IMG/VR virus record: IMGVR_UViG_3300050821_006909
Span: 1 to 38,671 of that record
Direction: 5' to 3' (one strand)
Origin: a virus
Length of the DNA: 38,671 bases
The translations under genes and the position numbers were made by a program. The notes below the pieces were generated by a model. That model made no database searches and was not told where the DNA came from. It worked only from the letters and a program-made list of their open reading frames with translations. Shown piece by piece: positions 1,425 to 28,277 of the stretch (positions are counted from its first letter, which is position 1; every line of letters starts with the position of its first letter).

Positions 1425-3610
1425 TGGCCCGGAAAGGCGTAAAGAAGAAAGAGAAGTTCGAGGATTTGCCGGTTCTTGAGACCGTGGATAGCCGCGCCAT
1501 CGACGCAGAAAGGCTGGACGAGGAGATTGAGAATTGGGCGGAAGATCAAGGCTCCGACGCGTACATCGACGCGTGCAAGCTCTATCCGAAGATTCAGAAA
1601 AGCTACGAAAATAAGCAACAGCAGTCCGATTGGTGCGAAGAATATTACAATATTTACAACGCAAGGCCTGACGAGAACGCGCAGTACTCAGGCAACAGCC
1701 AGTGCTACGTCCCTGCCGTGCGAGACGCAGTCAATGCGCGGTGCAAGCGCACGTTAGCCACGCTGTTCCCCGCGAACTACAAACACGTCGATGCTGTAGG
1801 TCCGGCCTCAGTGACGCCCTACCCGACACTCGCGCTGCTTGAGCACTATATCCGCAAAACGAATCTTAAAGACATCGTTCGCGCCGACCTACTAGCAGGC
1901 GATGTTACCGGCCAGTGGGCGCTCTACGTCGACTGGATGCGCACCACGCGGCGCATTACCGAACTGGTGAAAAAACCTCCCCTGCTTACGGATGAGGAAT
2001 CCGGCGTTGAGGCAGAAGATATCACCGTTGATGAAGAATGGGATATCGAAGAGAAAGAGATCATCGATGAAATGCCGGACATCACGCCGATCTCGGTTGA
2101 CGACCTTGCGGTTTATCCGCCTACGGTGAACGACATCGAGAAGGCGACGGCTACGGCTATTCGTCTTCGTCTTACGAAAGAATCCGTTCAGCAGTTCATT
2201 GACGAAGGTGTATTCGTCGGTTGGAACGCTAAAGAGATCATGGACAATCTGAACGAACCGGACGGCGGGCGCCAAAAGCGCGTACCGAACAAGCGGCGCA
2301 CAGCGGACGCAGGGGTTCGGACAGAGGGAACGTACAAATACGCATTAATTTATGAAGTTCACACAAACCTCGAACTGGAAGAAGGCAAGGGCAAGGAGCC
2401 GTGTTTTGTCTACTACGCTGGCCCTGAGGTCGTTCTTGGCATTATCCGCAACCCATTTTGGTCTAAGAAGCGCCCGATCATCACCGCGCCGGTTGAGCGC
2501 ATCCAAGGCACGATCTACGGCATAAGCCGCATTGAGCCCGTCAAGTACCTGCAGTGGAATTTGAACGATTTCTGGAATATGGGAATGGATTCTGCGCAAT
2601 ACGCGCTTCTGCCTATTGTGATGACCGATCCGCTCGCGAACCCGAACTACCAGTCGATGGTAATGGGCTTGGCGGCAGTATGGCTGACGAACCCGCAAAC
2701 GACTGAGTTCGCGCAATTCCCGGCGATCTACAAAGACGCCGTAGGCCTGTGCAACGCCATCAAGTCGCAGATCCAAGAATCGATGGATGTGAACGACGCG
2801 ATGCTAGGCAAGGCGCCACCGGGCAAGAAGAACCAGGCGCAAGCCGCCGCGCAAGCGCAGTCGCAGGAGTCGAACATCATCGACCACGCCAAGCGCTATG
2901 AGGGCGTGATGCTGAACCCGCTGCTTGAACGCATGTTCGAACTCGATCGTCAGTTCCGCACGAAGGAATTGACCGTGGTCACGATGGGCGAAGTCGGCGC
3001 GCGCGCCAAGCAGGAAGAGATTCCCGTCCAGGCGTTCAGTGAGCGTTACTTCTTCCGCTGGTGCGGCACGGCCTATCAGACCGGCATGCAACGCATGCAG
3101 CAAATGATCGCGTGGATGAACGTGCTGCGCGGTGTACCGCCGCAACAGCTTGACGGGCGTCGCCTGAACGTCGGCCCGATCCTTGAGATGGGCACCGAGC
3201 AGATATTCGGACCAGAAGTGGCGCCGCGCATTCTGATCGATGAGCGCAACCTCTACCATGTCGAACCGTCCGACGAAAACCTGATGATGCACAACGGCAT
3301 GCCTGCCGAAGTGCATCCAGCGGATGACGACAAACGACACATTACCGAGCACATGCACGGCGCGCAGTTGACCGGCGATCCGCACGGCCTGTTCCGCGCG
3401 CACATTCAGGCGCACCAGCAAGCCATGCAGCAGAAGATGCAGCAGGCGCAAGGCCCGCAACCCGGCCAGCAAGGCGCACCGGGCGGCGCGGGTCCAGGCA
3501 TCGCAGGAACGCCGCGCCCCGGCGCGCAACCCGGCCAGCCGCGCCCGCAAGGGCCTCCAGGCATGGTGCACCCTGATCAGATGGCAGACCCGCAGGCGGG
3601 GCCACGATGA
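1424..3610 (+). CDS. portal protein, 728 aa
   Basis: Recognised from size, position after terminase and before scaffold/capsid, and sequence character. It has a charged N-terminus and a long alpha/beta core with aromatic-rich stretches (SDWCEEYYNIYNARP; VKYLQWNLNDFWNMGMDS), a helical region QAQAAAQAQSQESNIIDHAK matching the portal stem/crown style, and a C-terminal tail rich in Gln, Pro and Gly from about residue 660. The length fits podovirus portals of the P22-to-N4 size range. Portals form the dodecameric DNA channel at the head vertex and dock the terminase. ATG at 1424 overlaps the previous TAA by one base. The Pro/Gln/Gly tail is probably disordered. Confidence 0.85.
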   Translation: MARKGVKKKEKFEDLPVLETVDSRAIDAERLDEEIENWAEDQGSDAYIDACKLYPKIQKSYENKQQQSDWCEEYYNIYNARPDENAQYSGNSQCYVPAVRDAVNARCKRTLATLFPANYKHVDAVGPASVTPYPTLALLEHYIRKTNLKDIVRADLLAGDVTGQWALYVDWMRTTRRITELVKKPPLLTDEESGVEAEDITVDEEWDIEEKEIIDEMPDITPISVDDLAVYPPTVNDIEKATATAIRLRLTKESVQQFIDEGVFVGWNAKEIMDNLNEPDGGRQKRVPNKRRTADAGVRTEGTYKYALIYEVHTNLELEEGKGKEPCFVYYAGPEVVLGIIRNPFWSKKRPIITAPVERIQGTIYGISRIEPVKYLQWNLNDFWNMGMDSAQYALLPIVMTDPLANPNYQSMVMGLAAVWLTNPQTTEFAQFPAIYKDAVGLCNAIKSQIQESMDVNDAMLGKAPPGKKNQAQAAAQAQSQESNIIDHAKRYEGVMLNPLLERMFELDRQFRTKELTVVTMGEVGARAKQEEIPVQAFSERYFFRWCGTAYQTGMQRMQQMIAWMNVLRGVPPQQLDGRRLNVGPILEMGTEQIFGPEVAPRILIDERNLYHVEPSDENLMMHNGMPAEVHPADDDKRHITEHMHGAQLTGDPHGLFRAHIQAHQQAMQQKMQQAQGPQPGQQGAPGGAGPGIAGTPRPGAQPGQPRPQGPPGMVHPDQMADPQAGPR

Positions 3611-3948
3611 TCGCTCGCTCCACACCCTGGGGCACAATACAAACCGGGCCAGAATTCGCCCGGTTGTCTGCGCTTGAGCAGAAAGCGGTGATCGCGCACG
3701 AACGCGGGCATATCCATCATCGGCACTTCTGGAAACGCATTGGCTGGCTTCTGACGAAAGGTATCGGAAAGAAGTCGCTCGAGCATTTTTTGAAGATGTG
3801 CGAGACGCAGGAACTGGAAGCCGATCGCTACGCCGTGTCAACGGGGCACGCCGACGGTCTTGCGTGTTTCTTGCTTCGAAGCCCCCTAGATGTCAAGCTA
3901 GTCGGATATCCTACGCACCGCCAAAGGCTGGAGGCTATCCGTGGCTGA
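3607..3948 (+). CDS. minimal M48-like zinc metallopeptidase, 113 aa
   Basis: The sequence VIAHERGHIHH gives HExxH at residues 31-35, and CETQELEADRYAVSTGH at about 65-81 carries the ExEAD signature that supplies the third zinc ligand in M48 (HtpX/Ste24-like) peptidases. The region between contains one helical, partly hydrophobic segment (FWKRIGWLLTKG). At 113 aa it is far shorter than cellular M48 enzymes and keeps little beyond the catalytic core. It starts in the portal stop codon (ATGA). Placement beside the portal suggests a virion-maturation or injected protease, but the substrate is unknown. Confidence 0.75.
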   Translation: MIARSTPWGTIQTGPEFARLSALEQKAVIAHERGHIHHRHFWKRIGWLLTKGIGKKSLEHFLKMCETQELEADRYAVSTGHADGLACFLLRSPLDVKLVGYPTHRQRLEAIRG

Positions 3949-14059: not shown

Positions 14060-14266
14060 ATGTTTGCAGCACTCGAAGCAGAATTCAATGCCATCGTGAA
14101 CGATGCCCGGTCGGTCGGCGAGAAGCTGGAAGCCCTTGTCGGCCTTCACACCAAGAGCGCAGAACTCGAAGCGCTCGCTACGCCGCTGGCGACCGTCATC
14201 GAAGACGCGAGCAAGGCAACCGCGACCAAGGTCACGGAGATCCTCACGATGGTAGGCAAGCTGTGA
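14060..14266 (+). CDS. small helical protein upstream of endolysin, 68 aa
   Basis: ATG at 14060 behind TAGGAGCAATCC. The whole chain reads as amphipathic helix (MFAALEAEFNAIVNDARSVG; ATKVTEILTMVGKL) without a membrane segment. It overlaps the lysozyme GTG by four bases and is therefore coupled to it. It may be a lysis accessory or a small virion protein; unknown. Confidence 0.6.
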   Translation: MFAALEAEFNAIVNDARSVGEKLEALVGLHTKSAELEALATPLATVIEDASKATATKVTEILTMVGKL

Positions 14267-14703
14267 ACTACTCGGCAGCGGGCTTGGCCCTGACAGAAGC
14301 ATCCGAGGGATGCGAGCTTACCGCGTATCAGGATTCGGCGGGCATCTGGACAATTGGTTTCGGGCACACCGCCGACGTGTTCCCTAGCGACACCTGCACG
14401 CAGCAGCAAGCGGCGGCATGGCTCGCGGAGGATATCCAGTGGGCGGCGCACGCGGTCAGCCAATACGTGACCGCGCCTCTTACTCAAAGCGAGTTCGACG
14501 CGCTGGTCGACTTCACCTTCAACCTGGGCGTGGGCAGTTTGGTGCATTCCACTTTGTTGCGTCTGCTAAACTCGCTCGATTACATGGGTGCGGCAGCGGA
14601 GTTTCCGAAGTGGAACATGGCAGGCGGGCGCGTGCTACCGGGACTGGTTACCCGGCGCGCGGCGGAACAGGCGATGTTTTTAGAGGGCCAAAATGGCACT
14701 TGA
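14263..14703 (+). CDS. endolysin, T4-type lysozyme (GH24), 146 aa
   Basis: Near the N-terminus ASEGCELTAYQDSAGIWTIG gives the GH24 triad with T4 lysozyme spacing: Glu15, Asp24 (nine later) and Thr30 (six later). Further family motifs are LTQSEFDALVDFTFNLGVGS and LPGLVTRRAAEQAMFLEGQ. It cleaves the beta-1,4 bond of peptidoglycan. There is no signal peptide or signal-arrest-release segment, so release should depend on a holin, encoded immediately downstream with an 11-base overlap. GTG start. Confidence 0.93.
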   Translation: MNYSAAGLALTEASEGCELTAYQDSAGIWTIGFGHTADVFPSDTCTQQQAAAWLAEDIQWAAHAVSQYVTAPLTQSEFDALVDFTFNLGVGSLVHSTLLRLLNSLDYMGAAAEFPKWNMAGGRVLPGLVTRRAAEQAMFLEGQNGT

Positions 14704-15070
14704 TCCGATCTCGGCGGGGCTCGATCTCGCAAGCACTATCGTCAACAAGATCTGGCCGGACAAGTCGCAGCAGGAGCAGCAGCAACTTGCTGCCGTGCTC
14801 GCGATGGTTCAAGGCCAAATGGCGATTGATCAGGCCGAAGCATCGAGCACCGATCCACTGCAACACTGGCGCGGAGGCTTGGGCTGGGTTTGCGTGATGG
14901 GGTACTTCTGGAACTTCGTTGGCCAGCCTTTGACGAACGCCGTTGCGGTAGCGCTGAATCATCCGCTCGCGCTTCCCGGTTTGGATATCGGCCCGCTCGC
15001 CACGCTCACCCTCGGTATGCTCGGCTTGGGCGGCTTGCACGTGGCGGCTCAAATGAAAGGTGGTTCGTGA
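14693..15070 (+). CDS. holin of the 3-TM type (GTA-holin-like), 125 aa
   Basis: The sequence follows the family layout: MALDPISAGLDLASTIVNKI WPDKSQQEQQQ (amphipathic start), then GGLGWVCVMGYFWNFVGQPL and a C-terminal hydrophobic part (IGPLATLTLGMLGLGGLHVA). Proteins of this type are annotated as holins in gene-transfer-agent-like and many podovirus genomes. It overlaps the lysozyme gene and has its own GAGGG site. It would permeabilise the inner membrane and release the lysozyme. Confidence 0.8.
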   Translation: MALDPISAGLDLASTIVNKIWPDKSQQEQQQLAAVLAMVQGQMAIDQAEASSTDPLQHWRGGLGWVCVMGYFWNFVGQPLTNAVAVALNHPLALPGLDIGPLATLTLGMLGLGGLHVAAQMKGGS

Positions 15071-20410: not shown

Positions 20411-20430
20411 AACTATAGCAGATGCAAAAT
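20411..20430 (-). promoter_or_regulatory. leftward extended -10 promoter element (site A)
   Basis: On the minus strand the sequence reads ATTTTGCATCTGCTATAGTT: TG-N-TATAGT is an extended -10 box. The same 20 bases occur at 31222-31241 in front of the rightward early genes. It lies 26 bases before the secreted-protein start and also overlaps the ATG of the ATP-grasp gene on the + strand. No good -35 box is visible, as often with extended -10 promoters. Confidence 0.55.
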
Positions 20431-21775
20431 GAAAATTCTAGTAATTGATGTAGCCAGCAATGCGCTTGACCTCTGCCAGCGCTGGCAAGCGGCGGGGCAT
20501 GAGGTCAAGTGGTACGACAAACCGCGCGCTGACGGTGGCGTACGGCGTGCCGGTGAAGGGCTGGTAGAGAAGATCCGCGACTTTGACGAACTCCGCAAGA
20601 AGTGGATCGGGTGGGCGGATATGATCTACACGCCCGACAACACCTGCTACCTCGATTTACTGGAACCGTACCGCAGGATCGGCTACCCGATTTTCGGCTG
20701 CAACCTCGAAGCCGTGGAGATGGAGCTTGATCGAGAGCACGGGCAGCGCGTCATGGCGGAGTACGGTCTGAAGACCATCCCTGGCAAGACATTTCACGAC
20801 TACGATACCGCCGCTGCCTACGTGAAGAAGGAAGCCAAGGCGTTCGTGTCCAAGCCTTCGGGGGATGGCGAGCGCGCCATGTCCTACGTTTCGAACAACG
20901 CCGCCGATCTCGTCTACATGCTGCAACGCTGGAAGGGCGTGGACAAGTACCGCAAGGCGGCGAGAGACGAGGGCTTCATTCTCCAGGAGAAGGTGAACGG
21001 TGTCGCGGAGATGGCCGTGGGCGGCTGGTTCATTCCGGGCGTGGGCTTCTCGAAAGCGGGGTGGGTTGAGAACTTCGAACACAAGTCATTATTCGCCGGG
21101 GATCTCGGCGTGGCTACCGGGGAGATGGGCACTATCGTGCGCGTCGTGAAAAAGTCCAAGCTGGCGGACCTAGTGCTTAAACCCGTTGCCGATCACCTGC
21201 ATAAAATCGGGTACATCGGATACGTGGACGTGGCTACGATCATCGATGACAAGGGCGTGCCCTGGCCATTGGAGTTCACTATGCGCGACGGGTGGCCTAT
21301 CCGCCACAATCTGACCTCGCTAATCATCGGCGATCAGGCGCAATGGATGAAGGATGCTTGCGACGGTAAGGACACGCTTAAGATACGCACCGACGTTGTA
21401 AGCGCGAGTGTTGTAATGGCGCTCCCCGACTTCCCCTACTCCCACGTCACGAACCGTGACCTGTGTGGAATCCCGGTCTACGGCGCCGAAGACATGGAGC
21501 ATCTCCACTGGTCCGAGGTCATGATGGGCGTAGCGCCGCGCGGGGTGAACGGGAAAGTGGTTGACCTACCTGGCCCGGTCACCGCGGGCGATTACACCCT
21601 GGTCGCGACTGGCGAAGGCGCAACCGTGTCCGGCGCGCGGCGAAGCGTGTACGCAGCGATCAAAAAGGTTAAGATCCCGAATAGCCCGTTTTATCGAATC
21701 GATATCGGGTCCAAGATGAAGAAACAACTGCCCATTCTTCAGGCTATGGGCTTTGCTACCGGAATGGAGTATTGA
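20429..21775 (+). CDS. PurD-like ATP-grasp ligase, 448 aa
   Basis: The chain follows GAR synthetase (PurD, about 425 aa) end to end: N-terminal nucleotide-binding-like start (MKILVIDVASNALDLCQRWQ), ATP-grasp region with AKAFVSKPSGDGERAMSYV and FILQEKVNGVAEMAVGGW, DLGVATGEMGTIV in place of the PurD GPNTGGMG loop (Glu232 replaces Gly), PWPLEFTMRDGWP in place of LEFNxRFGDPE (Glu282 kept, Asn lost), and a C-terminal domain YTLVATGEGATVSGARRSVY then FYRIDIGSKMKKQ as in PurD. It should ligate a carboxylate to an amine using ATP; the altered loops argue for a changed substrate. There is no clear ribosome-binding site before ATG 20429. Confidence 0.8.
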   Translation: MKILVIDVASNALDLCQRWQAAGHEVKWYDKPRADGGVRRAGEGLVEKIRDFDELRKKWIGWADMIYTPDNTCYLDLLEPYRRIGYPIFGCNLEAVEMELDREHGQRVMAEYGLKTIPGKTFHDYDTAAAYVKKEAKAFVSKPSGDGERAMSYVSNNAADLVYMLQRWKGVDKYRKAARDEGFILQEKVNGVAEMAVGGWFIPGVGFSKAGWVENFEHKSLFAGDLGVATGEMGTIVRVVKKSKLADLVLKPVADHLHKIGYIGYVDVATIIDDKGVPWPLEFTMRDGWPIRHNLTSLIIGDQAQWMKDACDGKDTLKIRTDVVSASVVMALPDFPYSHVTNRDLCGIPVYGAEDMEHLHWSEVMMGVAPRGVNGKVVDLPGPVTAGDYTLVATGEGATVSGARRSVYAAIKKVKIPNSPFYRIDIGSKMKKQLPILQAMGFATGMEY

Positions 21776-23610: not shown

Positions 23611-24990
23611 TTATTTATGACGCTTCATCGCCTGAAGCAAAATGTCCTGCACCGAACGCTTGCTCTCAAGCCGTTCCAGCACGTCGAAATCCACCGTGTC
23701 ATTCGCCAAAATGTAGTGGATGAAAACCGGCCTGTTATGCCCTGCTTGCATCTGGCGAGTAGGGCCAATCCGTTCAATGATCTGCTGATGTTCTTCCAGG
23801 TTCCAGTTCACTGAGAAAAACACGATGATGTTGCCGCCATCCTGTAAGTTAAGGCCGTGGCCAGCACTAGCAGGATGAGCAAACAAAACCGGTATTTTCC
23901 CCGCGTTCCAGCTTCTAATAGTTTCTGGATCGGAATCAAGCACGCGGCCCCGAGGAAAAGCGGCGCGCAAACGCACAAGATCATGCTTAAAATGATAAGC
24001 GACAAGTACGGGGGCCCCTCCTGCCTCTTCGATAATGTCGTCAAGAGCGCTGATCTTCGCATCATGTACCTCCGTCCAGTTGCGCGCTTCATCGGTATAG
24101 ATTGCGCCGTTCGCGAGCTGCAAGCACTTCTGGGTCTTCGACGCCGCGTTCAGCGCTTCGACTTCCGTTGGCCCCAAATGCCCCTCCAGTTCCAGGAACA
24201 TTTTCTTTTCCATGTCCCGGTACTGCTGCCGCGCTTTGTGGGGCAGATCCACGATTATCTTGTTGCTTATAGGTATCTTCAAATCGAAGTAATCCCTAGC
24301 TTCGATACTCAGGCAAACATCGGCGAGTAGAGCCTGTATTTCCTTCTGCGAGTGCTCCATGGGCTCCAAGCCGTAACCGTCAAAGCTACTTCTGAACCAG
24401 CGCTGCGAGAACGCTGTAAAACTCTTCCCTAGGCGCTCGCCGCCGTCAACAAACCACATGGGGCCGTACAAATCTTTAAGCCCATTGGGCGCTGGCGTGC
24501 CCGTTAGCCCGATCCACCGTTCGACTTTCTTGTGGGCCACCTCAGCTAGTGCCTTCGCTCGCTTCGTACCTTGTCGCGTGCGAAACCCTTTTAGCTTCGT
24601 CACCTCGTCCGCAACAATCGTCTTGAAGGGCCACGGGCGGGGGTTGTACTTAAACCAGTCCACAACCCAGGGGACGTTTTCGTAATTCAGGGTATAGATG
24701 GCTGAATCTTCGCGCAGTGCTTGGGCGCGCTGCGCTGCATTTCCGACGACTGCCGTGATCGGCAAATCAAACCCCCACTTCTTCACCTCGTCCGGCCAGG
24801 TGCTTTGCGCGACACGAAGCGGAGCGAGAATAAGAATCGGCCCCTCCTCCACCAGTTGGAGCGTTTCAGCAGCGGCTAAGACAGACGCAGATTTTCCGGT
24901 GCCCATGCCTGAAAACACATTGCATCTCTCATGCTCTAGGATGTGGTCGATTATCAACTTCTGATACTCGCGCGGTACAAGGCTAGACAT
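23611..24990 (-). CDS. SNF2/superfamily 2 helicase, 459 aa
   Basis: Motifs in order: LVPREYQKLIIDHILEHER (Q-motif-like), SGMGTGKSASVLA (Walker A, residues 28-34), LILAPLRVAQSTWPDEVKKW (Ia), IVADEVTKLKGF (motif II at 128-131 as DEVT rather than DEAH), WIGLTGTPAPNGLKDLYGPM (III), VLVAYHFKHDLVRL (IV) and QQIIERIGPTRQMQ (VI). Phages carry such SNF2-like helicases beside a family A polymerase and VRR-NUC nuclease, where they likely act in replication or recombination. The start overlaps the HNH gene by eight bases. Confidence 0.9.
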   Translation of the reverse strand: MSSLVPREYQKLIIDHILEHERCNVFSGMGTGKSASVLAAAETLQLVEEGPILILAPLRVAQSTWPDEVKKWGFDLPITAVVGNAAQRAQALREDSAIYTLNYENVPWVVDWFKYNPRPWPFKTIVADEVTKLKGFRTRQGTKRAKALAEVAHKKVERWIGLTGTPAPNGLKDLYGPMWFVDGGERLGKSFTAFSQRWFRSSFDGYGLEPMEHSQKEIQALLADVCLSIEARDYFDLKIPISNKIIVDLPHKARQQYRDMEKKMFLELEGHLGPTEVEALNAASKTQKCLQLANGAIYTDEARNWTEVHDAKISALDDIIEEAGGAPVLVAYHFKHDLVRLRAAFPRGRVLDSDPETIRSWNAGKIPVLFAHPASAGHGLNLQDGGNIIVFFSVNWNLEEHQQIIERIGPTRQMQAGHNRPVFIHYILANDTVDFDVLERLESKRSVQDILLQAMKRHK

Positions 24991-25459
24991 TGTTCTTCAC
25001 CCCGAACTGCTTGTGGTATTTTTCAGCGGCCTCGTCGTAGGCCCGCGCTGCCTGCTCTTCGGTTTCAAAGCGGCCTAACGATATCTTCCTCCCATTCGTT
25101 TTAATCAGGGCGCGCCATTTCTGAGTCTGCTTTTCGAAATGAACGCCCTTGTGTTGCGAGCTGGCGCCTTCTAATTGCTTGACGCGATTGCAACAATTCT
25201 CAGCCTGAACGCAAGCGCGCAAGTTCTCAATTCGATTATTGAGGCGGTTACGATCCATGTGGTCGACTACTGCGGGCAAGTAGCCGTGATGCAGAGCAAA
25301 CGCCAAGCGGTGCGCGTAGATCATCCCGTGCACGCCTGCGTTGACCCGAAGATATCCCTTTCCGTGCGGCGACCCGCAAGGGCGTCCCGTGCTGTTGCGG
25401 GTCAAGATGCCGGTTTCGGGGTCGTACTCAAACAGCAAGCGAAGTGCAGGAATATTCAC
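24983..25459 (-). CDS. HNH homing endonuclease with AP2 domain, 158 aa
   Basis: MIYAHRLAFALHHGYLPAVV followed by DHMDRNRLNNRIENLRACVQ is the HNH core; the C-terminal SSQHKGVHFEKQTQKWRALI then LGRFETEEQAARAYDEAAEK is AP2. GTG start at 25459 overlaps the stop of a membrane microprotein (GTGA). Likely a mobile free-standing homing endonuclease inserted in the replication operon without breaking it. Differs clearly in sequence from the HNH-AP2 protein near the portal. Confidence 0.9.
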   Translation of the reverse strand: MNIPALRLLFEYDPETGILTRNSTGRPCGSPHGKGYLRVNAGVHGMIYAHRLAFALHHGYLPAVVDHMDRNRLNNRIENLRACVQAENCCNRVKQLEGASSQHKGVHFEKQTQKWRALIKTNGRKISLGRFETEEQAARAYDEAAEKYHKQFGVKNNV

Positions 25460-25536
25460 TTGCGCCCCGCCTTGTAGACGAATTCGACTACGAGCGCTGC
25501 AACCGCAATCCAGCCCATAATTCCGATGAAAGTCAT
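25456..25536 (-). CDS. single-TM microprotein, 26 aa
   Basis: ATG at 25536 behind GGAGAG. Product MTFIGIMGWIAVAALVVEFV YKAGRK: one membrane helix and a basic tail, expected to sit in the inner membrane with the tail in the cytoplasm. It overlaps the VRR-NUC gene before it (ATGA) and the HNH gene after it (GTGA). Good ribosome-binding site and double coupling argue it is real despite its size. Confidence 0.6.
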   Translation of the reverse strand: MTFIGIMGWIAVAALVVEFVYKAGRK

Positions 25537-25811
25537 GTTGCTCTCCGCGACGCGATCAGCGCGTCAACCTGTTCCTTGCTGTCGATAACCGAGATCCACG
25601 CGCCCGCGCGATCCCACTTAGCGTGCTCGCGCTCCTGCTCAGGGCGCAGCGGCTTTCCAGGTGCTTTAAATTCTATAAAGTAGACCGTCGCGGCGAGCAC
25701 GAGAACCCGATCAGGCACGCCCCGGTGGCCGGGGCTCACGAACTTTCGCTGCAAGCCCCCCGCTTCCTTTACGCGCTTCACAAAGTACGCTTCGATTTCA
25801 CTTTCTCTCAT
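25533..25811 (-). CDS. VRR-NUC nuclease, 92 aa
   Basis: RESEIEAYFVKRVKEAGGLQ leads to SPGHRGVPDRVLVL and VYFIEFKAPGKPLRPEQERE, giving the GxPD...ExK...Q signature of the VRR-NUC branch of PD-(D/E)XK nucleases. Start at 25811 (MRESE) chosen because it overlaps the upstream microprotein stop by one base; a longer frame to 25865 would cover that gene. In phages this stand-alone nuclease accompanies SNF2 helicases and is thought to process branched DNA. Confidence 0.88.
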   Translation of the reverse strand: MRESEIEAYFVKRVKEAGGLQRKFVSPGHRGVPDRVLVLAATVYFIEFKAPGKPLRPEQEREHAKWDRAGAWISVIDSKEQVDALIASRRAT

Positions 25812-25888
25812 CACAGGCCCCAGACCAGCGCCAAGAAAACAACAAGCGCCAAAGCGAAGACCCAAAACGGTATGTCATTGAAGTCCAT
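25811..25888 (-). CDS. single-TM microprotein, 25 aa
   Basis: ATG at 25888 behind GGAGGGG. Product MDFNDIPFWVFALALVVFLA LVWGL: a short acidic start and one long hydrophobic helix. It overlaps the gene before (TAATG) and the VRR-NUC start after it (TGATG). Second of four such membrane microproteins within 700 bases. Confidence 0.6.
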   Translation of the reverse strand: MDFNDIPFWVFALALVVFLALVWGL

Positions 25889-26064
25889 TAGCCCCTCCAC
25901 CCGATTAGCAAACCGAAAACCACGCCGACGATCAGTACGCCGAGAACCGCGCACAGGCGTTCGTGTTTCTTGCAGACCGCGATGTCGTAGCGGTGGTACG
26001 CGCCGAAGGCTTGCTGGATCGTGCGCGGCGTTGCGCGGTAGTGTTTGTTGTCTCGTGAAAACAT
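25888..26064 (-). CDS. small basic protein with C-terminal TM helix, 58 aa
   Basis: Start at 26064 because GGGAGAAA precedes it and it overlaps the upstream stop by one base. Begins MFSRDNKHYRATPRTIQQAF, contains AVCKKHERLCAV, and ends with a membrane helix LGVLIVGVVFGLLIGWRG. A cytosolic basic domain tethered by its C-terminus. The two cysteines eight residues apart with an adjacent His might bind metal. Unknown function. Confidence 0.6.
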   Translation of the reverse strand: MFSRDNKHYRATPRTIQQAFGAYHRYDIAVCKKHERLCAVLGVLIVGVVFGLLIGWRG

Positions 26065-26159
26065 TATTTTCTCCCGAGTGCTCTTATGATCGTGGTAGTA
26101 ACGAAGTACCCCGCGACCGCCCAGAGGAAACACCAAAGCCACTCTGGCACTAAGATCAT
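26064..26159 (-). CDS. Trp-rich single-TM microprotein, 31 aa
   Basis: ATG at 26159 behind GGAGAAAACAA. Product MILVPEWLWCFLWAVAGYFV then TTTIIRALGRK: one aromatic-rich membrane helix with a basic end. It is the first gene after the palindromic promoter element and overlaps the next gene by one base (TAATG). Confidence 0.6.
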   Translation of the reverse strand: MILVPEWLWCFLWAVAGYFVTTTIIRALGRK

Positions 26160-26178: not shown

Positions 26179-26220
26179 TTGACGACTTAACTATAGCATC
26201 TGCTATAGTTAAGTCGTCAA
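26179..26220. promoter_or_regulatory. perfect 42-base palindrome with extended -10 boxes (site B)
   Basis: Left arm 26179-26198 and right arm 26201-26220 are exact reverse complements (20 bases each) around the two-base centre TC. Each arm begins TTGACGACTTAACTATAGCA when read inwards. Each strand carries TATAGT preceded by TGC, an extended -10, with TTGACG 19 bases upstream. Leftward, it would drive the microprotein genes from 26159. It also overlaps the last bases and stop of the polymerase gene. It could be a bidirectional promoter, an operator for a dimeric regulator, or in RNA a strong hairpin. Confidence 0.7.
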
Positions 26221-28277
26221 TCTTTTCTGTACCGATATCCTTCGAAACCGGCAGCGGCTAAGGGTAAATCGGGAGCCCAAGCCGGATTGGTCGCGAGTAG
26301 TCCTGACAAATGTTCGGCGTTGAACTCAGGCCGGTCGGGCGCGTAGCATATATCTTCGTCGTGGACCGGGAGTTTGATCTCGTACCCGGCATCCGTAATG
26401 CGAAATGCGTTCGCCTTGAACACATCGCGCGCTACAGCTTGCGTCATGTTTTCCACTAGCTTGCCGCCGTAGGTGCTGATCCTGGACCACTTGCGGCTGT
26501 ACTGGTTGATACCCATGAACGATAGCTTGCCATCTTCTACGCGCGGGGCGGGGTAGGACAACGATCGCCCGCTTGGCAGGATTATGCGCAACCAATTGCC
26601 TTTGCGAACGGCGATGCACTTGCCGATCGGGAACTCTTCCCCTTCCGAGAAAACCGCGCTTGCCGCCGAGCCTTCGGCCCAAGACCATAGGGCTTCCGTC
26701 TTGGGGTGCGCGCGGCGCCACAAGCGCTTGAGCGAATCGCAAGCGATGAACACTTCTTTCGGAAGGCCGAACGTAGGCCGTTTTTTGTCAATAGTCCAGT
26801 TCCAGAAGTTCTCCGCTTCGGCTACTACGTCGCGCGGTAACGACAAACCGGAAGTCATCTTTTCCAAGTCCAAGGCATATGCTGCGGCAAACGTCAGGAA
26901 CGCGCCTACGCCGCCCTGAAAGCCCATTGCTAGCTCCAAGACCTTGCCGACCTGGCGCCGCGCTTCTTCGATCGATACGCCGAAGGTCCGCGCGTAGGAA
27001 GCGAGGTACAGATCCGCACCGATCCCTGCATCGAAGTCCCGAAATGCTTGCAGCTTCCACTCTTCGCCTGCGAGCCATGCGAGCACGCGACCTTCGATGT
27101 TCGACAAGTCGGCGACTACCAGCTTCTTGCCCGGTGGCGCGATGATAACGCCGCGCATGGCGTTCGCGCACAACTCCATGACGTTATCCGTAATCAGGTC
27201 CGCACAACCCGCCTTGATGGCTTCTATGCCTTCGTCAATCTCTTCGGCGGGCAGCGTCGGGCGCATCAAGTTCTGTGGCTGGAATAAACGTCCTGCGTCG
27301 CGTCCAGTGCGCCCAGCCCCAGAGAACTGAATAATCCCGCGCAAGTAGCCATCGGAAGACGTAGAGCGCATCACGCGCTTGTACTTGCTCACCGATGACG
27401 TGGACGCCATCAAGCGCATTCCGATCAGGTCGCGAACACCATCCGGCAACGATGGGTCTTGAAGCCTTCTCTCAAGTGTGTCTGCCCGCATATCTGGCAG
27501 AAGTACTCCATGTTCAGCAAGTATGTGCTTAAGGAGCTTATCTCGTTGTGTCGCGGCAGTGACCTCGCCGCCTGTTGCTTCTGTAACATCTTCTGCAAGG
27601 CCGGTTTGCGCAATGTCAACGGCCTCAATCGCCTTGGCTGCGAGTTCAAGATCGACATATACCCCCGCTTGGTTGATTCGCTGATCGAGTTGCCATAGCT
27701 TCAGTTCGAACTCGTTGCTCGGATAATTCCACTTCGGCATTTTCTGGTGCAGCACGCGCATCGACGTGATATCCGACTTTGCGTACTCGATGAACTCCGT
27801 CCACTCGGCGGGGTGCGTCTCGCGAGTCTTGCGGCGTAGCTTGCTGTTCTTCGCTTGCGGTTTGCAAAAATACATAATCAACTGTCGACCTCGCTTGTTC
27901 TTGGCGAGATCAACGGGCAGGCGGAAAACATCGCACAGAGTATCTAGTTTTCCGGGCAACCCGTGGCACAGGGCCTGCACCATAGAATCTCGACGCTTCT
28001 CCGGCTTCATCTTCTTGTCCAAGAACGGGAGCGCATGTTTCAGCACTACATGGTCGAATCCGCCGCTGTGGTGCCCCCAGTATTCATCCGCCGCGTCTAT
28101 GGCTTCAACCAATTCGTCCGGGGGCAGAAGGCGCGAAGTTCTGTCCCAGCACCGCACCGGCCCATCGTTGACCGCCCACGCGAATAGCAACACCTCAGCG
28201 TTCTCAGCGTATCGATGAGACCCATCGGTAATAGGCGTGTCACAGAACGTTTCCAAATCAAAAAACAGAAGGTTCAT
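26217..28277 (-). CDS. family A DNA polymerase with 3'-5' exonuclease, 686 aa
   Basis: The N-terminal exonuclease domain starts MNLLFFDLETFCDTP (DxE) and ends with EYAKSDITSMRVLHQKM (YxxxD). The polymerase domain has motif A VVADLSNIEGRVLAWLAGE (Asp390), motif B RRQVGKVLELAMGFQGGVGA and motif C LPVHDEDICYAP (His639-Asp640-Glu641). This is the replicative polymerase of phages that also carry DUF2800, DUF2815, VRR-NUC and SNF2 genes. It overlaps the upstream HNH gene by 20 bases, and its stop lies in the 42-base palindrome. Confidence 0.95.
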   Translation of the reverse strand: MNLLFFDLETFCDTPITDGSHRYAENAEVLLFAWAVNDGPVRCWDRTSRLLPPDELVEAIDAADEYWGHHSGGFDHVVLKHALPFLDKKMKPEKRRDSMVQALCHGLPGKLDTLCDVFRLPVDLAKNKRGRQLIMYFCKPQAKNSKLRRKTRETHPAEWTEFIEYAKSDITSMRVLHQKMPKWNYPSNEFELKLWQLDQRINQAGVYVDLELAAKAIEAVDIAQTGLAEDVTEATGGEVTAATQRDKLLKHILAEHGVLLPDMRADTLERRLQDPSLPDGVRDLIGMRLMASTSSVSKYKRVMRSTSSDGYLRGIIQFSGAGRTGRDAGRLFQPQNLMRPTLPAEEIDEGIEAIKAGCADLITDNVMELCANAMRGVIIAPPGKKLVVADLSNIEGRVLAWLAGEEWKLQAFRDFDAGIGADLYLASYARTFGVSIEEARRQVGKVLELAMGFQGGVGAFLTFAAAYALDLEKMTSGLSLPRDVVAEAENFWNWTIDKKRPTFGLPKEVFIACDSLKRLWRRAHPKTEALWSWAEGSAASAVFSEGEEFPIGKCIAVRKGNWLRIILPSGRSLSYPAPRVEDGKLSFMGINQYSRKWSRISTYGGKLVENMTQAVARDVFKANAFRITDAGYEIKLPVHDEDICYAPDRPEFNAEHLSGLLATNPAWAPDLPLAAAGFEGYRYRKD

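Follow-up and report, generated by a model that had tools for sequence, protein, structure and literature searches.

The window analyzed here, the whole 38,671-nt stretch spanning positions 1 to 38,671 of IMG/VR virus record IMGVR_UViG_3300050821_006909, carries a minus-strand series of genes that begins with a family-A DNA polymerase (26217–28277, stop codon at 26217). Downstream of the polymerase stop lie, in order, a 42-bp palindrome, ORF31 (26064–26159), ORF58 (25888–26064), ORF25 (25811–25888), a VRR-NUC-type endonuclease (25533–25811), ORF26 (25456–25536), an HNH endonuclease gene (24983–25459), and a SNF2/DEAD-type helicase recognized from profile matches (23611–24990). The original prediction held that four ORFs of 31, 58, 25, and 26 aa, each with a hydrophobic helix and a ribosome-binding site, are chained to one another and to the VRR-NUC and HNH genes by stop-start overlaps, directly behind a palindromic promoter. 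We recovered the four ORFs exactly where they had been placed on the minus strand, and all of the junctions could be read in the window sequence: TAATG at both ORF31/ORF58 and ORF58/ORF25, TGATG at ORF25/VRR-NUC, ATGA at VRR-NUC/ORF26, GTGA at ORF26/HNH, and an 8-nt overlap at HNH/SNF2. Shine-Dalgarno sequences precede each of the four starts by 5–7 nt (GGAG at 7 nt for ORF31, GGAG at 6 nt for ORF58, GGAGG at 5 nt for ORF25, and GGAG at 6 nt for ORF26). The 92-aa VRR-NUC product matches the phrog_93 endonuclease family (E 3.1e-27); its score against Pfam PF08774 (VRR_NUC), 18.9 bits, falls below the cut-off of 23.8. Elsewhere in the window, we noted a phage ATP-grasp protein with phosphoribosylglycinamide synthetase domains (GARS_A and GARS_C; 20429–21775) and a small M48-type metallopeptidase with a HERGH motif that adjoins the portal gene (3607–3948).

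Each of the four microproteins is predicted to contain a single transmembrane (TM) helix. Kyte-Doolittle maxima over a 19-residue window are 1.6 for ORF31, 2.9 for ORF58, 2.4 for ORF25, and 2.2 for ORF26, making the ORF31 helix the weakest of the four. ORF58 has a basic N-terminal tail, FSRDNKHYRATPRTIQQAFGAYH, followed by a C-terminal helix, and both ORF31 and ORF26 have a basic C-terminus. The positive-inside rule is an established basis for predicting membrane-protein orientation, and it predicts an N-in/C-out arrangement for ORF58 and an N-out/C-in arrangement for ORF26 and ORF31. ORF25 contains no basic residue, and the rule therefore assigns it no orientation.

To define chance expectation, we counted ORFs of 20–70 aa that have a Shine-Dalgarno sequence, an ATG or GTG start, and a 19-residue hydrophobic stretch scoring at least 1.6. 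The 804-nt region containing the microproteins yields four such ORFs, compared with a mean of 0.01 and a maximum of 1 in dinucleotide shuffles (n = 2000). Because shuffles miss some features of coding DNA, the count over the whole window serves better as a control: the remainder of the window, read on both strands, holds six further ORFs that pass the same filter, and judged by this count the microprotein ORFs are strongly clustered. Codon-position GC in the four ORFs resembles that of the adjoining genes (GC3 0.62–0.76). These compositional and contextual signals support the assignment of ORF31, ORF58, ORF25, and ORF26 as real genes. An alternative is that ORF58 and ORF26 alone are genes and that ORF31 and ORF25 are chance or decaying ORFs. 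Both were found in this record only, with no homologue in the collections searched (back-translated patterns returned nothing, and local tblastn gave chance matches only), as this alternative would predict. We nevertheless consider it quite unlikely, given the good Shine-Dalgarno sites, the start-stop overlaps, the coding-like GC3 values, and the excess over shuffle expectation; moreover, relatives have different small ORFs at the equivalent positions, some of which encode TM helices.

Using VRR-NUC and polymerase queries, we gathered more than 130 IMG/VR loci, from which a comparison set of 35 distinct loci was drawn (the window and 34 relatives sharing 59% polymerase identity or more). A nucleotide search of phage records gave no match. 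The order polymerase, VRR-NUC, SNF2 is constant across the 35 loci. Two of the gathered loci, L110 and L117, lie about 40 kb apart on one 79-kb contig (IMGVR_UViG_3300037852_000046) as divergent copies of the module; this contig is perhaps two phage genomes joined.

The promoter proposed for this operon is also kept among the relatives. In the window, perfect 20-bp arms (26179–26198 and 26201–26220) form a perfect 42-bp palindrome (26179–26220) that overlaps the DNA polymerase stop codon, and the minus-strand promoter, TTGACG followed by the extended -10 element TGCTATAGT, comes immediately after the stop. The -10 element lies in the arms in both orientations, so that the plus-strand copy points into the polymerase gene, antisense to it. 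The extended -10 element (TGCTA[TC]A[GCT]T) stands ahead of the operon in 35 of 35 loci and always before ORF58; it is right behind the polymerase gene in 31 loci and follows an inserted gene in 4. TTGAC usually lies upstream of it, separated from it by TTTTGCA. Among the loci read, the full perfect palindrome was seen in the window only. As judged from this sequence comparison, a putative promoter conserved in all relatives takes the form of the palindrome in the window. The TGCTATAGT element recurs in the window at 20420(-), 26201(+), 26198(-), 31232(+), and 36284(-), and GCATCTGCTATAGT occurs six times, compared with 0.15 occurrences expected by chance (up to 2 mismatches). The recurring TGCTATAGT element probably marks one promoter class serving several operons.

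The four microproteins differ in how they are conserved. ORF58 lies between the polymerase and VRR-NUC genes in all 35 loci, the window included; none was seen in more distant clades (polymerase identity below 52%). In three loci of a distant clade (L041, L045, and L048), this polymerase–VRR-NUC gap carries an unrelated ORF, 38 aa long and with a single TM helix. Comparison of the window ORF58 with that of the nearest relative, L083, gave 11.8 changes over 41.2 synonymous sites and 4.2 changes over 132.8 nonsynonymous sites, an excess of synonymous change that indicates purifying selection. The pooled-pair ratio for ORF58 is 0.54, an estimate weakened by saturation; that for ORF26 is 0.74. Nucleotide identity to L083 is uneven along the operon, with 160 of 177 positions identical in ORF58, 92 of 137 and 80 of 125 (64–67%) in VRR-NUC, and 90 of 94 in ORF26 with its Shine-Dalgarno sequence. 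This mosaic pattern suggests that exchange within the operon has probably occurred.

Both flanks are readable in 32 loci; in 29 of these, VRR-NUC is followed by an ORF26-type ORF of 22–32 codons, which L003, L008, and L016 lack. Little of its sequence is kept, while its size and hydrophobicity persist, with C-terminal positive charges in 27 of 29. ORF26 is accordingly best marked as a gene by positional and physico-chemical, rather than sequence, conservation.

ORF31 and ORF25 behave differently. ORF31 is absent from L083, where a gap of exactly 96 nt is bordered by GGAGAAAA repeats, which are the Shine-Dalgarno repeats, and the flanks of ORF31 are intact; in the same relative, the position of ORF25 is taken by an unrelated 30-residue hydrophobic ORF. 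Across the comparison set, the site before ORF58 (slot 1) is empty in 13 of 35 loci and the site between ORF58 and VRR-NUC (slot 2) in 9 of 35, slot 2 being filled by other ORFs in the remaining relatives. In loci with nothing in slot 2, the ORF58 stop and the VRR-NUC start share 4 nt; an inserted slot-2 gene typically shares 1 or 4 nt with the end of ORF58. Only some of the slot-2 genes are membrane-type. One cassette family, beginning MGWEWSYC, occupies slot 2 in L009 and L013 and slot 1 in L113, and HNH-type genes occur in slot 1 and in slot 3, between ORF26 and SNF2. Ten slot cassettes were compared with Pfam, and no significant family was found. The start of ORF25 (25865–25888) reads MDFNDIPF, which recalls the C-terminal tip of bacterial SSB, DFDDDIPF; since the motif is at the wrong end of the protein and is unconserved, the likeness is likely a coincidence.

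The HNH gene in slot 3 of the window matches PF13392 (HNH_3; E 3e-15) and PF00847 (AP2; E 4e-12). It is absent from L083, in which the same ORF26 stop marks the start of SNF2, and from most relatives. These two domains, together with sporadic presence at a fixed site, identify it as a homing-type endonuclease. A second HNH-AP2 homing-type gene lies at 957–1424 of the window, and the two are 44% identical over their C-terminal part. From the comparison of relatives, ORF31 and ORF25 are swappable passengers, and the HNH gene is an optional insertion at the ORF26/SNF2 boundary.

These losses bear directly on the original prediction, which expected conserved order and hydrophobicity in relatives, proposed a substitution-rate check, and named broken frames between intact flanking genes as evidence against it. 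The expectation holds for ORF58 and ORF26 and fails for ORF31 and ORF25. Frames lost between intact flanks were found for ORF31, for the ORF25 slot, and for ORF26, and ORF58 is kept throughout; the rate check was run on ORF58 and ORF26 and found purifying selection on ORF58 relative to L083. A single membrane complex, made up of the four microproteins together with the nuclease, had also been put forward as a possibility. Gene order, coupling, and the shared promoter in the window are compatible with such a complex. However, ORF31, ORF25, ORF26, and the HNH gene are each missing in individual relatives whose neighboring genes are intact, and in the operon of L008, ORF58 is the only membrane microprotein found. 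Relatives that do without three of the four proteins make the complex highly improbable. Genes of the ORF58 family also occur in phage regions where no VRR-NUC homologue was detected, and a tblastn search with the window ORF58 of 1,224 phage records that have VRR-NUC homologues returned no convincing match.

The wider ORF58 family emerged from a profile search of viral contigs. Its core reads FSRD..H.R.TPR[TS]..AFGPY, followed by a basic stretch and then one hydrophobic helix. We defined members by this motif at the N-terminus and a single hydrophobic helix at the C-terminus, and the window ORF58 has both. The search recovered members in loci without matches to the VRR-NUC, SNF2, or polymerase queries, where the neighboring genes encode RecT, ERF, or PD-(D/E)XK proteins. 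Profiles of the polymerase-clade and recombination-operon groups align with 99.4% probability (hhalign, E 9.7e-22), and the homology covers mainly the ~24 N-terminal residues. In 11 recombination-operon loci, a membrane-directed gene (10 TM, 1 lipoprotein-like) lies directly upstream of the ORF58 homologue at a spacing of -4 to +2 nt; ORF31 is placed likewise in the window. Xanthomonas phage PBR31 gp54 (QIN95365.1, hypothetical protein) is the sole homologue found in an isolate phage, and all other members come from virus contigs without annotation. No convincing family match was found in Pfam, PHROGs, NCBIfam, or PADLOC, and profile searches of bacterial genome collections found no member. 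The family was also unnamed in the results of a limited literature search of open-licence papers. By these comparisons, ORF58 represents a new, unannotated family, common to unrelated phages and unmatched in the family libraries searched.

An AlphaFold2 model of ORF58 built from 32 sequences (mean pLDDT 76) has unstructured residues 1–15 and helices at 16–26 and 29–56. The TM segment falls at residues ~37–55 of 58, and no folded domain is predicted. The net charge of the N-terminal tail is +2 to +6. Weak PDB matches that the ORF58 profile gave to prion protein (E 0.12 or weaker) were dismissed as chance similarity to a glycine/alanine-rich hydrophobic stretch. A holin or lysis role was also rejected: the window has a lysozyme and a GTA_holin_3TM holin at 14263–15070, ~10 kb from the microproteins.

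We favor, at a probability of about 0.4, a reading in which the locus is an early operon with a conserved core and exchangeable cassettes, and ORF58 is an early membrane effector directed at the host. By sequence comparison, the operon runs from the promoter at the polymerase stop through slot 1, ORF58, slot 2, VRR-NUC, ORF26, and slot 3 to SNF2, with ORF58 and ORF26 as its constant membrane microproteins and ORF31 (slot 1), ORF25 (slot 2), and HNH (slot 3) as passengers. Stop-start overlaps would let genes be added or exchanged with translational coupling kept. ORF58 would sit N-in/C-out in the inner membrane, its conserved basic tail facing the cytosol, where the tail might bind and modulate a membrane-associated protein of the host. 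ORF26 and the microproteins of the slots would then act either as optional partners or as small effectors in their own right. Because the tail is constant while the DNA enzymes differ (PolA/VRR-NUC/SNF2, RecT, ERF), its ligand is likelier to be a conserved host membrane component than one phage enzyme.

The main rival is that ORF58 is a membrane tether: its basic tail would contact DNA or the replisome and bring replication or recombination to the inner membrane, in the manner of phi29 p16.7 or p1, which provide a precedent (PMC4974454). The ORF58 family is found in DNA-metabolism operons of both groups (PolA/VRR-NUC/SNF2 in one; RecT, ERF, PD-(D/E)XK, and SSB in the other), and its tail is net positive. 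We regard this as possible and lean against it: the adjoining DNA enzymes vary between the groups while the tail stays constant, ORF58 has an unstructured N-terminus and a short helix in place of a folded DNA-binding domain, and its TM helix is C-terminal, in contrast to the N-terminal anchor of p16.7. The linkage of ORF58 to DNA genes may reflect only a shared early operon, or else a role of ORF58 in phage DNA metabolism. A broader version, rather doubtful to us, would make the family a dedicated membrane-docking device for phage recombination or replication. Unrelated proteobacterial phages would use it alongside differing sets of DNA enzymes and pair it with exchangeable single-TM proteins (ORF31, ORF26, and, in the recombination-operon loci, the product of the TM gene upstream).

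A block on competing phages at the membrane, by superinfection exclusion or otherwise, would also suit small early single-TM proteins, and fast turnover of the slots fits phage-phage competition. Exclusion proteins usually diversify, whereas the ORF58 tail is strongly conserved. There was also no match in PADLOC, whose models are unlikely to cover every exclusion protein. We consider exclusion unlikely. The strongly conserved and predicted cytosolic motif of ORF58 gives experiments a compact target: a short motif, a single helix, and one operon. Among the tiny ORFs of such operons, ORF58 first and then ORF26 are the most worth study. As an early phage operon, the locus also illustrates seamless one-gene cassette slots, whose boundaries are set by stop-start overlaps.

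Among known systems, PBR31 gp54 shares with ORF58 the FSRD..HYR.TPRS tail and a C-terminal TM helix, and the gp54 operon includes SSB; unlike ORF58, gp54 is 65 aa long and has no polymerase, VRR-NUC, or SNF2 gene annotated beside it. The replication module of BPP-1 and BcepC6B has the same polymerase, VRR-NUC, helicase order, with a homologous polymerase (55–57%), VRR-NUC, and helicase and with small genes between them. It differs from the window in having no ORF58 match and in the number and arrangement of the intervening small genes. At the level of protein architecture, phi29 p16.7 combines an N-terminal anchor with a DNA-binding domain. ORF58 does not fit this layout of an N-terminal TM helix and a soluble DNA-binding domain, as its TM segment is at the other end of the protein, behind a 38-residue tail, and no sequence relation to p16.7 or p1 was shown. 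Both phi29 proteins are early membrane proteins reported to anchor viral replication (PMC4974454). Small phage membrane proteins encoded in early operons are a known kind.
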